Shown here piece after piece: positions 38,166 to 42,239 of a DNA stretch of 64,000 nt (the first letter of the stretch is position 1; each line of letters begins with the position of its first letter). The stretch is taken from positions 186,001 through 250,000 of the forward strand of contig NZ_JACHWY010000002.1 in the NCBI RefSeq assembly GCF_014191715.1, read 5' to 3'. The translations under genes and the position numbers were made by a program. The DNA comes from Litorivivens lipolytica. Its GTDB lineage: Bacteria > Pseudomonadota > Gammaproteobacteria > Pseudomonadales > Spongiibacteraceae. The notes beneath the pieces were generated by a model, which saw nothing but the letters and a program-made list of their open reading frames with translations, did no database searches and was not told the DNA's origin.

Positions 38166-39875
38166 ATGTCTCGCGCATCCGAAAAACTCAAAGCCCCGAA
38201 CGACAGCGGCGAAACCCTGTGGCGCACTGAATACTACGAGCCGGCCATCGCCGATACCGGCGAGCGCAAAACCCGCTTCCAGACCCAGAGCCTGCGCTGG
38301 GATATCAAGCCGCTCTATACCCAGGCCGATCTGGATGCCATCGGTTTTGATCCGGACACCGATCTCGGCCTGCCCGGCACCTATCCTTATACCCGTGAGA
38401 CCCGGCCTGCCGGTTATCGGGGGGATCTCTGGGCCATGACTCAGGTCAGCGGCTTTGGCTGCGCTGAAGATTCGGCCAAGCGCTGGGCCTATATGGTGGA
38501 GCAGGGGCTGGACTCCATCATTGTGGAGTTTGATCTGCCGACCACCAACGGTTACGACTCCGATAACCCTCTGTGTCGAGGTGAAGTGGGGCGGGCCGGG
38601 ATGGCGCTCGATACTCTGCAAGACATGGAAGATGCCCTCGATTTCCCGCTGGAAAAACTGAAAAACATCACGTCCGTGTGCAACGCGCCGCAACCGGTCA
38701 ATCTGGCGATGCTGATCAAGGCCCTGCAGCGCAAGGGCAAAAAGCTGGAAGACATCCGTCTGATGATGCCCAACACCATACTGGTGGAGTACACCTGTGT
38801 CGGGCGCTATATCTACCCACCGAAACACGGCCTGCGCCTTGCCTGCGATGTGATCGAATACTGCATGCAGCACCACAGCAACTGGATGCCGCTCAATATT
38901 GTTGGCGCACAGATCTACGCGGCGCGGGGCAATCCGGTGCAGGAAATTGCCTACTCCTTTGCCATGGCGCGGGCTTATATCGACGAACTGCTGGCCCGCG
39001 GCCACGACATCAACCGGGTCGCGCCGATGGTGAGTTTTATCACCGGTATTGATATGGATTTCTTCGAAGCCATTGGCAAGCTGCGAGCGTATCGCAAGGT
39101 GTGGGCTCGACTGATGAAGGAAACCTATGGCGCGACCGCTGAAGAGGCGCTGAAGCTGCGCTTGATGAGCAGCCCCGGCACCATGTCCATGGCCCTGCAA
39201 CAACCGCTCAATAATATCGCCCGGCTCGGCATAGAAATGCTGGCCTGTGCCCTGGGCGGCGGCGCACACACCATCAACACGCCGCTCTACGATGAGGCTC
39301 ACGCCCTGCCCAGTGAGGATGCCATTACTATCGGCGCGAACATCCATCATATTGTTGCCCAGGAAACGGGGGTGGCCGATACCATCGATCCGCTGGCGGG
39401 TTCTTACTACGTGGAGTACATGACCAAGCGCATGGAAGACGAGGTGTTTGCCGAGCTGGAAAAAATCGAAGCCATGGGTGGCGCGCTGGGTGCACTGGAA
39501 GCCGGCTATTTTCAAAGTGAACTGGCAGAAGAACAGATCGCCATGAATCGGGATTTTCATACCGGCGAACGCAAGTTTGTGGGCGTGAACTATCGCGTTA
39601 AAAAAGACGAGCAGCGCGAGATCGAGATCTTCCGTCATGACGAGGCTGCTGAGGCGCGTCAGATCGAGCGGCTGAACAAGGTTAAAAGCCGCCGCGACGA
39701 GGCTGCCGTAGCACGGGTTCTGGAAAAAGTCCGGGAGGCGGCGCGCGGCAATACCAATATGGTCGAGCCGATGCTGGAAGCCGTGGAACTGTATGCCACC
39801 CACGGCGAACTGTGTGATGCCATGCGCGACGTGTTTGGCGAGTATGACCCCAATGCGCTCACCCCTACCCTGTAA
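38166..39875 (+). CDS. coenzyme-B12-dependent acyl-CoA mutase, large subunit, substrate unassigned
   Basis: A 569-residue TIM-barrel subunit of a methylmalonyl-CoA-mutase-type radical enzyme; the B12 domain is on the next gene. Family landmarks are intact: LPGTYPYTR (69-77), FDLPTTNGYDSDNP (122-135), RGEVGRAGMALD, RYIYPPKHGLRLACDVIEY, SSPGTMSMALQQPLNN, GGAHTINTPLYDEAHALPS. Active-site positions of methylmalonyl-CoA mutase are changed: Arg80 where Tyr89 is expected, Pro202 for Gln197, Val212 for Arg207, and Ala248-Gln249 for Tyr243-His244 (manual alignment from memory to the Propionibacterium enzyme). Loss of the carboxylate-binding Arg makes methylmalonyl-CoA an unlikely substrate. Isobutyryl-, 2-hydroxyisobutyryl- or pivalyl-type, or a new, acyl-CoA is possible. 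First gene of a co-oriented operon; the small subunit follows after 12 bases. Confidence 0.9.
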   Translation: MSRASEKLKAPNDSGETLWRTEYYEPAIADTGERKTRFQTQSLRWDIKPLYTQADLDAIGFDPDTDLGLPGTYPYTRETRPAGYRGDLWAMTQVSGFGCAEDSAKRWAYMVEQGLDSIIVEFDLPTTNGYDSDNPLCRGEVGRAGMALDTLQDMEDALDFPLEKLKNITSVCNAPQPVNLAMLIKALQRKGKKLEDIRLMMPNTILVEYTCVGRYIYPPKHGLRLACDVIEYCMQHHSNWMPLNIVGAQIYAARGNPVQEIAYSFAMARAYIDELLARGHDINRVAPMVSFITGIDMDFFEAIGKLRAYRKVWARLMKETYGATAEEALKLRLMSSPGTMSMALQQPLNNIARLGIEMLACALGGGAHTINTPLYDEAHALPSEDAITIGANIHHIVAQETGVADTIDPLAGSYYVEYMTKRMEDEVFAELEKIEAMGGALGALEAGYFQSELAEEQIAMNRDFHTGERKFVGVNYRVKKDEQREIEIFRHDEAAEARQIERLNKVKSRRDEAAVARVLEKVREAARGNTNMVEPMLEAVELYATHGELCDAMRDVFGEYDPNALTPTL

Positions 39876-39887
39876 GCGAGAATAGAG

Positions 39888-40283
39888 ATGGACCAACCAA
39901 TCAGAATCCTTCTTGCCAAAATCGGTCTGGATACCCACACCATTGGTATCACCGTACTGGCGAAAGAACTGCGCGATCGGGGTTTCGAAGTGATTTTTTC
40001 AGGCCTTAAACAAACCCCGGAGAAAGTCGCCCACGCCGCGCTGCAGGAAGATGTAGATGTGATCGGCGTGAGCTGCCTGTCGGGGGGGCATATGACTCAC
40101 CTGAAAGTACTCGCCGAGAAAATGCGGGAAATGGGACTGGACGACCGCATTCTGATTGTTGGCGGGGTGGTGCCAGAAGAAGATGTGGAACCACTGAAAG
40201 CCCTCGGTGTGGATCAGGTGTTCACCATGGGCGCGAATATGGATGACATTGCGGCTTACCTGCGCAGCGCTGTTTCTGCCTGA
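39888..40283 (+). CDS. acyl-CoA mutase small subunit, cobalamin-binding
   Basis: A 131-residue B12-binding subunit. The base-off/His-on signature DxHxxG is present as DTHTIG (Asp15, His17, Gly20), with His17 the predicted lower cobalt ligand. SCLSGGH stands for the usual SxL...GH loop and IVGGVVPEEDVEPLKALGV for the GG loop near the nucleotide tail. The DGHDRG wording of common mutases is replaced by DTHTIG, so this is a divergent branch, as is the large subunit. Its stop overlaps the start of the G-protein gene by one base (TGATG), implying translational coupling. Confidence 0.92.
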   Translation: MDQPIRILLAKIGLDTHTIGITVLAKELRDRGFEVIFSGLKQTPEKVAHAALQEDVDVIGVSCLSGGHMTHLKVLAEKMREMGLDDRILIVGGVVPEEDVEPLKALGVDQVFTMGANMDDIAAYLRSAVSA

Positions 40284-41239
40284 TGCGTCGCCCGATCACA
40301 CTTGATGACCAATGGCGCTCGGCAGTGCAGGCGCGCGACACGGCTGTATTGGCGCGCACCATTACAGCCATTGAACGCTCCCCGGAATTTCTGCTGCAGC
40401 TCTCGCGAGAGGTTTTTTCCGTCGCGCCCGTCAACAGTATCGGTATTACCGGCGTGCCCGGTGCCGGTAAGTCGACCCTGCTAAATCAGCTGATTGCGCA
40501 CTATCGCGCACAGGACAAGCAGGTTGCCGTTTTGGCGGTTGATCCGAGTAGTGTGCAGACCGGCGGTGCCGTGTTGGGTGATCGCCTGCGGATGCAGGAT
40601 CACGCGCTCGATGACGGTGTTTTTGTACGCTCGCTATCCACCAAGGGCCAGCTCGGCGGCGTATCGGAAACCACCTTTATCACCGCGCAATTCCTGAAAT
40701 TCGCTGGTTTTGACCGGGTTTTTATTGAGACGGTGGGGATCGGTCAGAACGAACTCGATATTGTGCGCGTTGCTGATGTGAGCGCGCTGGTGTTTATCCC
40801 AGGCGGCGGCGATTACGTGCAGGGTATTAAATCCGGTGTGATGGAAGTGGGCGATGTTTTTGCCATCAACAAGGCCGATCTTGACGGCGTACGCGCGTTG
40901 GAGAAAGTGCTGCAACTGGAGGCCCACGACCGGGAAAACAAAACCGGCTTCGCAACCACGGTTTGTCGTACCAATGCCATCAGTGGCGACGGGGTTCCCG
41001 CGCTGGTCGACGCCTTGGAAGCTGCCTTGGGTTCACCGCAGGCCAGTGCCCGCCGCGACAGCCAGCTCAGAGCCTTTTCGGAACTTCTTTTGAGTATCGA
41101 GCTGCGTCAGCGTTGGCTGAAACCTTTTGTCGCGGGCGACAAGGGGCTTGAGTTTTTCAGTGCGCTGGAGCGCGGTGAAAAGCAGCCAGCCGATATTGTT
41201 GAAGCGTTTCACGCGAGCGTGCGGAACGCGAACGGCTAG
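40283..41239 (+). CDS. MeaB/ArgK-type G-protein chaperone of the acyl-CoA mutase
   Basis: A 318-residue G3E-family GTPase that protects and reloads B12 mutases with adenosylcobalamin. Walker A is GVPGAGKST (57-65), followed by AVDPSS, ETVGIGQNE (base-2/switch region) and NKADLDG (G4). Length matches MeaB. Its fixed place after both mutase subunits, with a one-base overlap, indicates a dedicated chaperone. Downstream of its stop lie two small imperfect hairpins before the regulator gene. Confidence 0.93.
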   Translation: MRRPITLDDQWRSAVQARDTAVLARTITAIERSPEFLLQLSREVFSVAPVNSIGITGVPGAGKSTLLNQLIAHYRAQDKQVAVLAVDPSSVQTGGAVLGDRLRMQDHALDDGVFVRSLSTKGQLGGVSETTFITAQFLKFAGFDRVFIETVGIGQNELDIVRVADVSALVFIPGGGDYVQGIKSGVMEVGDVFAINKADLDGVRALEKVLQLEAHDRENKTGFATTVCRTNAISGDGVPALVDALEAALGSPQASARRDSQLRAFSELLLSIELRQRWLKPFVAGDKGLEFFSALERGEKQPADIVEAFHASVRNANG

Positions 41240-41306
41240 CCCCTCAAGCCGTGCGCAGCGCGATATGAGGCGCTACACTTGCGCGCTTTATATTTGGAAG
41301 TCATTT

Positions 41307-42239
41307 GTGAGCGATCTGGCACAGTTACTGGAAGACTATCGAGAGTCGGCACTTGGCGTTGTCCTCGTGACGCTGGTCGCCGATTACGAAGATCGTTTTC
41401 TCAAGGCCTACGGTGAACAGGGATTTTCCGATATTCGCCGCTCTCATGGGTCTGTGCTGCGCCACCTCGATGCCAGCGGCACGACATTGTCTGAATTAGC
41501 CCTGCGTGCGGGTGTCAGCAAACAGGCTATCGGTAAAACGGTGCGTCAGCTCGAAGCACTCGGTTACCTCCATATCAGCACAAGCCATACGGACAAACGA
41601 GCGCGACTGGTGCGGTTTAGTTTGCGCGGCGACCGCCTGGTCAGCGCCTCTAACCGCGTGGTGGAAAATATCCGCCGTCAGTATCGGCAGCAACTCGGTA
41701 GCGATACTTTCCAGCGCCTATTTGAATTGTTGCAGGGCCTGACGGACGCGCTGGGTCGGCAGCCACAGGTTGCCAGCAGTGGCGAAGCGCAACGCTTTCT
41801 ACACTTTGGCCGCCTGATGGTGGAACTGGCCGGCGATTTTGAAAAGCGCCTACTGCAGCATCTATCGGCAGAAGATGCTGCAAAACTCTCGCAACCTGTG
41901 CTCAGCCAGTTTTTCTATTGTCGCGCTGCCCCCATGACCGTCTCTGAGCTGGCGGAGAACCAACCATTGACGGTGCAGGCGGTCAGCCTGACTAGCCGGG
42001 CCATGGTTAAAGCCGGGCTGTTGGCGGTCAGAGAAAGTCCGCGCGATAGCCGGGCTAAAGAACTCTCTATCAGCGAAAGAGGCTGGAACTGGCTGAAGTC
42101 GGTTGTCCGAGCCAACCGCCAGATTCGTGAACAATACGCCGAGGCTTTGGGGCAGACTGCTCTGGAGGAGCTGGATCAGATTTTTCGTACCCTGCTGAAG
42201 GCGCTGGTCGAAAGGAAACCTGAAAAAGTCGTAATCTGA
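41307..42239 (+). CDS. tandem double-MarR-domain transcriptional regulator
   Basis: A 310-residue protein with two MarR-like winged-helix domains in one chain. Domain 1 is centred on TLSELALRAGVSKQAIGKTVRQLEALGYL (about 59-108) and domain 2 on MTVSELAENQPLTVQAVSLTSRAMVKAGLL (about 209-258). Each has a wing of the S..DKRAR/S..DSRAK type. MarR proteins normally dimerise from single-domain chains, so this is a covalent pseudo-dimer. The GTG start at 41307 has GGAAG upstream; longer open frame into meaB is not conserved-looking. Position between mutase genes and the downstream gene suggests that it controls this operon, perhaps in response to an acyl-CoA. Confidence 0.82.
   Translation: MSDLAQLLEDYRESALGVVLVTLVADYEDRFLKAYGEQGFSDIRRSHGSVLRHLDASGTTLSELALRAGVSKQAIGKTVRQLEALGYLHISTSHTDKRARLVRFSLRGDRLVSASNRVVENIRRQYRQQLGSDTFQRLFELLQGLTDALGRQPQVASSGEAQRFLHFGRLMVELAGDFEKRLLQHLSAEDAAKLSQPVLSQFFYCRAAPMTVSELAENQPLTVQAVSLTSRAMVKAGLLAVRESPRDSRAKELSISERGWNWLKSVVRANRQIREQYAEALGQTALEELDQIFRTLLKALVERKPEKVVI

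Follow-up and report, generated by a model that had tools for sequence, protein, structure and literature searches.

The window analysed here, a 64,000-nucleotide stretch of Litorivivens lipolytica DNA, is part of contig C2 of a 3.49-Mb genome and carries a three-gene mutase set on the + strand (Table 1). Twelve bases separate the large-subunit gene from the gene for the B12-binding subunit, which overlaps that for a MeaB-type GTPase by one base. The large subunit belongs to the MM_CoA_mutase fold family, with 491.4 bits against PF01642 (cut-off 22.1) and 444.5 bits against TIGR00641 (cut-off 303.8). Against NF006944, the NCBIfam equivalog for methylmalonyl-CoA mutase (MCM), it scores 367.4 bits, under an 876-bit cut-off that is set for the longer single-chain enzyme. 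Its closest solved relative is 2-hydroxyisobutyryl-CoA mutase (HCM; 4r3u; E 1.2e-110, phmmer against solved structures). The B12-binding subunit scores 136.3 bits against TIGR00640 (cut-off 57.45) and 83.5 bits against PF02310. The GTPase scores 234.7 bits against PF03308 and narrowly passes TIGR00750 (242.2 bits, cut-off 240.75). The same genome encodes a canonical single-chain MCM of 723 amino acids that has Tyr89, Arg207, Tyr243 and His244. The divergent mutase is thus not the housekeeping enzyme.

Table 1. Positions of the mutase genes, the active-site codons discussed in the text and related loci. Positions are those of the window unless a genome and contig are named.
Feature	Position	Strand	Basis
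Mutase large (substrate-binding) subunit, divergent MCM-family clade, 569 aa	38166..39875	+	PF01642, TIGR00641, 4r3u
Arg80 (MCM Tyr75), variable column	38403..38405	+	alignment
Val94 (MCM Tyr89), V in 27/27 clade members	38445..38447	+	alignment
Glu121 (MCM Ala116, HCM Asp), E in 27/27 clade members	38526..38528	+	alignment
Pro202 (MCM Gln197)	38769..38771	+	alignment
Val212 (MCM Arg207), V in 27/27 clade members	38799..38801	+	alignment
Ala248-Gln249 (MCM Tyr243-His244), A, Q in 27/27 clade members	38907..38912	+	alignment
Ser336 (MCM Gln330)	39171..39173	+	alignment
Pro373 (MCM Asn366) to Glu377 (MCM Glu370, kept)	39282..39296	+	alignment
B12-binding subunit, 131 aa, DxHxxG motif DTHTIG	39888..40283	+	TIGR00640, PF02310
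MeaB-type G-protein chaperone (GTPase), 318 aa	40283..41239	+	PF03308, TIGR00750
Double-MarR regulator, directly 3' of GTPase gene	41127..42239	+	PF12802, 2 stretches
L149/L150-type mutase (also L152, L153)	G693:C11:48495-50069; G028:C4:174212-175780		

The window mutase is flanked by a double-MarR regulator, an Rv3169-family protein, a metal-hydrolase-family protein and an AraC regulator. The true start of the MarR gene probably lies within its open reading frame. The regulator is kept beside the mutase operon in the genus (layouts of loci L009 and L015), and we infer that it belongs to that operon. Two same-genus relatives have mutases 94% and 88% identical to the window protein, with similar neighbours. 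At L009 (13211-14536) and L015 (13239-14555), a transporter-like gene, MFS by eye, separates the GTPase and MarR genes, unlike in the window, where none lies between them (41239-42239).

The window mutase was aligned by phmmer/HMMER with solved structures and by MAFFT with 4r3u, human MUT (2xij) and Propionibacterium shermanii MCM (5req). An earlier sequence-only reading, made by manual alignment, had placed Pro202, Val212, Ala248 and Gln249 opposite MCM Gln197, Arg207, Tyr243 and His244, and all four pairs hold under HMMER and MAFFT. Its fifth pair was out of register in both: MCM Tyr89 lies opposite Val94 (WAMTQVSGFG in the window opposite WTIRQYAGFS), and Arg80, which it had matched to Tyr89, falls in the MCM Tyr75 column. 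The supposed arginine at the substrate-setting position is therefore an error. Members of the clade described below have R, E, K, D, N, S, T or Q in this column, and other mutases have Q, Y, R, F, H, E, S or D, so Arg80 carries no weight. Mis-registration of the whole block, the flaw that might have undone the comparison, is dismissed for the other four positions: the flanking blocks GYDSD, YIYPP and SYYVE are intact, and the register is therefore secure. This conservation had been read as speaking against simple decay, a view that the low omega values and fixed replacements reported below bear out.

The loss of carboxylate-binding and catalytic residues proposed earlier stands for Arg207 and Tyr243/His244, but extends well beyond them. 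MAFFT places further changes, missed before, at M78 (G83 in the window), R82 (D87), R87 (T92), S114 (I119), A116 (E121), S164 (I168), T166 (S170), T195 (M200), D199 (T204), N236 (M241), E247 (A252), R283 (M288), H328 (M334), Q330 (S336) and N366 (P373), while E370 is retained as E377. With V94, E121, V212 and A248/Q249, the protein lacks the signatures of methylmalonyl-CoA mutase (Tyr89, Arg207), isobutyryl-CoA mutase (Phe89, Gln207) and HCM (Ile89, Asp116, Gln207), as well as the Tyr243/His244 pair of known acyl-CoA mutases.

This active-site pattern is not due to chance. It is common to 20 orthologues, which share 57-94% identity with the window protein, and to six Sphingobium sequences. The resulting 27-member clade alignment comprises the window protein, 20 sequences from genomes and MAGs and six of the 12 Sphingobium sequences; its hosts are Spongiibacteraceae, other gammaproteobacteria, Myxococcota and Sphingobium. 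The clade is rare and patchy. Counting members at no less than 57% identity and including the window's own, it is carried by 6/57 genomes of near relatives, 6/390 of the order, 2/274 of the class and 8/282 in the phylum that includes G393, where the Myxococcota-titled locus L010 lies. Members also occur at eight loci from a further genome-contig search and, at >60% identity, in 12 plasmid records, all from Sphingobium. In a sample of 398 genomes from the window's phylum the window genome was the sole carrier, and the other four matches were 36-38% identical without the clade pattern.

Twelve positions are fixed in all 27 members: G78, V89, E116, T122, E135, S166, V207, A243, Q244, S330, P366 and E370 (MCM columns). 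The sequence-only reading had looked to the persistence of Arg80 and Gln249 in orthologues as a mark of distinct chemistry; Gln249 (column 244) does persist in 27/27, whereas Arg80 does not. Outside the clade, 44 of 47 rows have histidine in column 244; the other three are those of loci L149 and L150, discussed last, and one misaligned IcmF row. The usual residues are also lost across the clade at columns 87, 114, 164, 195, 197, 199 and 283, the last being Y in 24 members and M in the other three, all from the window genus. Column 82 (Arg in MCM) is Asp in 16/27 members, and Arg326 is kept in 24/27. At columns 195/197/199/236 the residues are H/V/G/A in Sphingobium, the Spongiibacteraceae genus g2 and other gammaproteobacteria, mostly Q/P/A/I in most Myxococcota-side members, and M/P/T/M in the window genus. 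These differing sets suggest that there may be sub-specialities inside one architecture.

The clade is distinguished by which columns it has lost. Among 32 other mutases (MCM, HCM, the F89/Q207 type and the Y89/Q75 type), 120 columns are near-invariant; of these the clade retains 56, while 39 are lost and 25 mixed. When the two most divergent outsiders are added, 67 invariant columns remain. Fourteen of these are lost outright in the clade, including R87, S164, T166, T195, Q197, D199 and H244, and 13 others are mixed. Other groups lose columns too (HCM 6/76, the F89/Q207 group 4/75, MCM 15/92), as do single divergent sequences (L086 13/80, L025 16/83), so the number of lost columns proves nothing by itself. 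The peculiarity of the clade is that its lost columns are shared by enzymes with different acyl groups, go jointly and are then largely fixed. We take the lost set to line the CoA path and grip the thioester in the P. shermanii MCM structures, with Ser114, Ser164, Thr195, Arg82 and Arg87 presumably being conserved small or polar residues along that path. Since the loss reaches columns that MCM, HCM and ICM-like mutases keep despite their different acyl groups, it points to CoA/thioester binding that has been lost or re-designed. Both single divergent sequences have features of their own: the mutase of L025/L048 (G395) has N114, G330 and C366, with hydantoinase-like and acyl-CoA dehydrogenase-like neighbours at L025 by eye, and that of L086 (G1199) has A243, G328 and V330 and keeps H244.

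The clade is monophyletic with a bootstrap of 100 (IQ-TREE). At 1.20 substitutions per site its stem is the longest of four groups measured (MCM 0.88, HCM 0.62, F89/Q207 0.35), although the figure falls to 0.65 under a different model and sampling. The mutases of locus L006 (G008, Spongiibacteraceae genus g2) and L109 (plasmid pMSHV of Sphingobium herbicidovorans) are 84% identical. Because their hosts belong to different classes, gene transfer between a gamma- and an alphaproteobacterium is likely. The EthD proteins that adjoin these two mutases are 43% identical; mutase and EthD have likely evolved unevenly around the transfer.

The clade mutase is under purifying selection. Against the two same-genus relatives, the large subunit has an omega of 0.042-0.049; the B12 subunit gives 0.017-0.029 and the GTPase 0.066-0.128. 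These values are approximate because dS (1.1-2.2) is near saturation. The GTPase evolves faster than the mutase within the genus (74-85% versus 88-94% identity). The B12 subunit retains DxHxxG, the base-off/His-on cobalamin signature, in 20/20 orthologues, and the P-loop is present in 18/18 of the co-encoded MeaB-type chaperones. In the genus of G028, G130 and G179 the B12-subunit gene lies on a different contig from the mutase, and at L079 and L080 a GTPase homologue adjoins the B12-subunit gene. In two of 20 genomes (G396 and G397), whose completeness is not given, the clade mutase is the sole PF01642 protein. Decay of the mutase is ruled out by omega together with the fixed replacements.

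Modelling adds support for the fold. An AlphaFold model built from nine sequences has a mean pLDDT of 58.8 and a pTM of 0.63, and the pocket includes some of its least confident stretches; two scans of viral contigs found no relatives for a deeper folding alignment. The best Foldseek match, 4r3u, has a TM score of 0.62 and an rmsd of 19 A, which confirms only the overall fold. Glutamate mutase, which needs no CoA and likewise has a separate B12 subunit, matches the model weakly (1cb7_B, E 0.013) and, unlike the window's relatives in solved structures, is not a sequence relative by phmmer.

Among known systems HCM is nearest in architecture. Like the window system it has a large subunit of about 570 amino acids without its own B12 domain and a MeaB-type GTPase; its B12 subunit, HcmB, is separate. 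Both have an acidic residue at column 116 (Asp in HCM, Glu in the window). They differ at column 89 (I versus V), 207 (Q versus V) and 243-244 (YH versus AQ), and all of columns 78, 87, 114, 164, 195, 197, 199, 283, 328, 330 and 366 differ as well. MCM (5req, 2xij) shares the fold, Glu370 and the DxHxxG motif of its B12 part, but the window system carries its B12 domain on a separate chain and has lost Arg207, Tyr89, Tyr243 and His244 together with many acyl-CoA-mutase columns. Isobutyryl-CoA mutase, IcmF and the F89/Q207 group share the fold and, unlike the window protein, keep F89, Q207, Y243, H244, S164, T195 and Q197.

The nearest new function in the open-access literature searched is the proposed hexylmalonyl-CoA mutase of actinonin and matlystatin, which still has a CoA substrate (PMC5719088). 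The available portion of a paper on estrogen mentions methylmalonyl-CoA mutase once, for propionyl-CoA use (PMC7793797), and the word "mutase" is absent from the main text of a paper on tomatine (PMC10653915). No description of the clade was found in the open-access literature; subscription papers lay outside that search, which makes this weak evidence of absence.

The genes around the mutase differ between lineages. The Sphingobium order is mutase, B12 subunit, MeaB, EthD-position gene and TonB receptor, with a P450 gene and two further genes upstream, the latter being regulators in the L109 annotation (6/6 regions opened, of 12). An EthD gene accompanies the mutase in all 12 Sphingobium records by coordinates and feature names (six regions opened). 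Using the Sphingobium EthD protein, tblastn found the gene at 8/19 other mutase loci and did not find it at 11/19, including both window-genus loci; the one EthD match in the window genome is weak and lies away from the mutase, on contig C1. At L036 and L037 (Spongiibacteraceae genus g2) the order is SDR, mutase, B12 subunit, MeaB, EthD, SDR, TonB receptor and P450. Other clade loci have sulfotransferase, FAD_binding_2, VOC, acyl-CoA dehydrogenase or PhyH genes; the best NCBIfam model for the FAD_binding_2 protein is a 3-ketosteroid dehydrogenase, with a score under its cut-off. No EthD, P450 or TonB genes adjoin the mutase at the window locus. A single common pathway around the mutase was considered and rejected: neighbours vary by lineage, and only EthD recurs.

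In one steroid-degrading Sphingobium strain the mutase gene is part of a catabolic island, next to EthD, P450, SDR and TonB-receptor genes. The available text of one study identifies the EthD-domain protein Hsh3 of Sphingobium sp. Chol11 as a 7beta-hydroxysteroid dehydratase and lists S. herbicidovorans MH among bile-salt degraders, with an Hsh3 homologue of its own (PMC12175502). This homologue (WP_234810817.1) is not the EthD protein that adjoins the S. herbicidovorans mutase (WP_037468010.1). The EthD link, Hsh3 and the bile-salt-degrading carrier support a putative steroid- or terpenoid-type substrate. A sequence search found no solved relative of the EthD protein of L014. On plasmid Mpl of Novosphingobium PP1Y (L111), a 52% relative of the mutase-linked EthD protein has TonB-receptor homologues nearby, and no mutase lies within the 24.6 kb read around it.

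Our preferred account is that the clade is probably a functional three-component B12-dependent carbon-skeleton mutase, forming a new subfamily with a rebuilt substrate pocket. Because its fold, B12-carrying subunit and loading GTPase have all been retained, it probably still uses adenosyl-radical chemistry, with both catalysis and AdoCbl use predicted from sequence. The MeaB-type GTPase would load AdoCbl, as the accessible part of PMC10481361 describes for MeaB and AdoCbl mutases. The B12 subunit would then dock on the barrel of the large subunit, and the radical would form as in MCM. These three steps are proposed because the partner proteins are retained; for the substrate step, we infer a 1,2-rearrangement of a molecule that Glu121, Gln249 and hydrophobic contacts hold in place. 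In the putative pocket the presumed thioester and carboxylate contacts Gln197, Arg207, Tyr243 and His244 are replaced, as are Ser114, Ser164, Thr195, Arg82 and Arg87, largely by hydrophobic residues, and fixed Glu121, Gln249 and other fixed polar residues are gained. The substrate would be hydrophobic, with a hydroxyl or carbonyl group held by Glu121 and Gln249, and the enzyme would serve catabolic routes for steroid- or terpenoid-like compounds. One paper reports that an HCM became inactive when its first-shell active-site residues were rationally altered (PMC11599936). In substrate-free MCM, according to another, the adenine of AdoCbl stacks on Tyr89 (PMC6257451). The PDB contains, by its entry title, an H244A mutant of MCM (1e1c).

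On the best reading of the alignment, the clade no longer handles any known acyl-CoA, and perhaps no CoA thioester at all. A tentative extension is that it has left CoA altogether and rearranges a free steroid- or terpenoid-like molecule held by Glu121 and Gln249, with the mutase transferred between Alpha- and Gammaproteobacteria within catabolic islands and an EthD partner processing substrate or product. The CoA-free substrate, taken by itself, is possible rather than expected. An acyl-CoA mutase that was forced to rebuild by a bulky acyl group, such as a steroid- or terpenoid-derived acid, and that holds the CoA tail through other residues is an alternative of about the same probability. 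In its favour, the closest solved relatives all use CoA thioesters, Arg326 is mostly kept, and genes for acyl-CoA dehydrogenase, thiolase, MaoC and 3-hydroxyacyl-CoA dehydrogenase in the Sphingobium island, with an acyl-CoA dehydrogenase gene near the mutase at L013, would fit a CoA substrate. Against it, R87, S164, T195, Q197, D199 and H244, which are independent of the acyl group in MCM, HCM and ICM-like mutases, are lost clade-wide, and Arg82 has been exchanged for Asp in most members.

Two other accounts seem very improbable. Loss of His244, Tyr243 and Arg207 could mean a non-catalytic subunit with a degenerate pocket, like the beta chain of heterodimeric MCM, which the window protein also matches, more weakly (1e1c_B, 76 bits). 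Yet the replacements are fixed and not scattered, omega is about 0.04, an intact B12 subunit and GTPase are co-encoded, and G396 and G397, both of ungiven completeness, have no other PF01642 partner; the low omega, the retained DxHxxG and P-loop and these two genomes together make a dead or helper subunit unlikely. The Y89V, Q330S, N366P and E247A/P changes would suit a different B12 chemistry, radical elimination or methyl transfer in place of skeleton rearrangement, as we take Tyr89, Gln330, Asn366 and Glu247 to be among the MCM residues that contact the adenosyl group, the corrin and the substrate. Glu370, however, is kept in 27/27 members, and a partner of the MeaB type serves to load AdoCbl mutases (PMC10481361).

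The B12 acyl-CoA mutase subfamilies compared here differ at columns 89, 116 and 207, while their presumed thioester and CoA contacts are the same throughout. The clade has this presumed contact set rebuilt as a block, and distant bacteria conserve the rebuilt form. An active enzyme would mean either that the family's need for a CoA thioester has been broken or that there is a new mode of CoA-thioester binding, and either answer would bring a new radical carbon-skeleton rearrangement. One clade carrier, S. herbicidovorans MH, is a cultured steroid degrader, so the question is testable. The label "methylmalonyl-CoA mutase" given to clade proteins in public records is probably wrong and misleads pathway reconstruction.

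A further type of mutase, seen at L149 and L150 in genomes that also carry the clade (G693 and G028), resembles it in part. Like the clade it has Glu116, Val207 and, in place of His244, an amide residue (Asn), and several columns that the clade has lost are lost here too (R87, S114, S164, T166 and H244). It is only about 30% identical to the window protein, however, and keeps Tyr243, Thr195, Gln197, Asp199 and His328. The type groups with the clade at a bootstrap of 93, which is under the usual threshold and involves long branches; if the grouping is real, the E116/V207/amide-244 state arose once. At L153, a mutase of this type is accompanied by genes for a B12 subunit, an iron alcohol dehydrogenase, a TetR regulator and an AMP-binding ligase.
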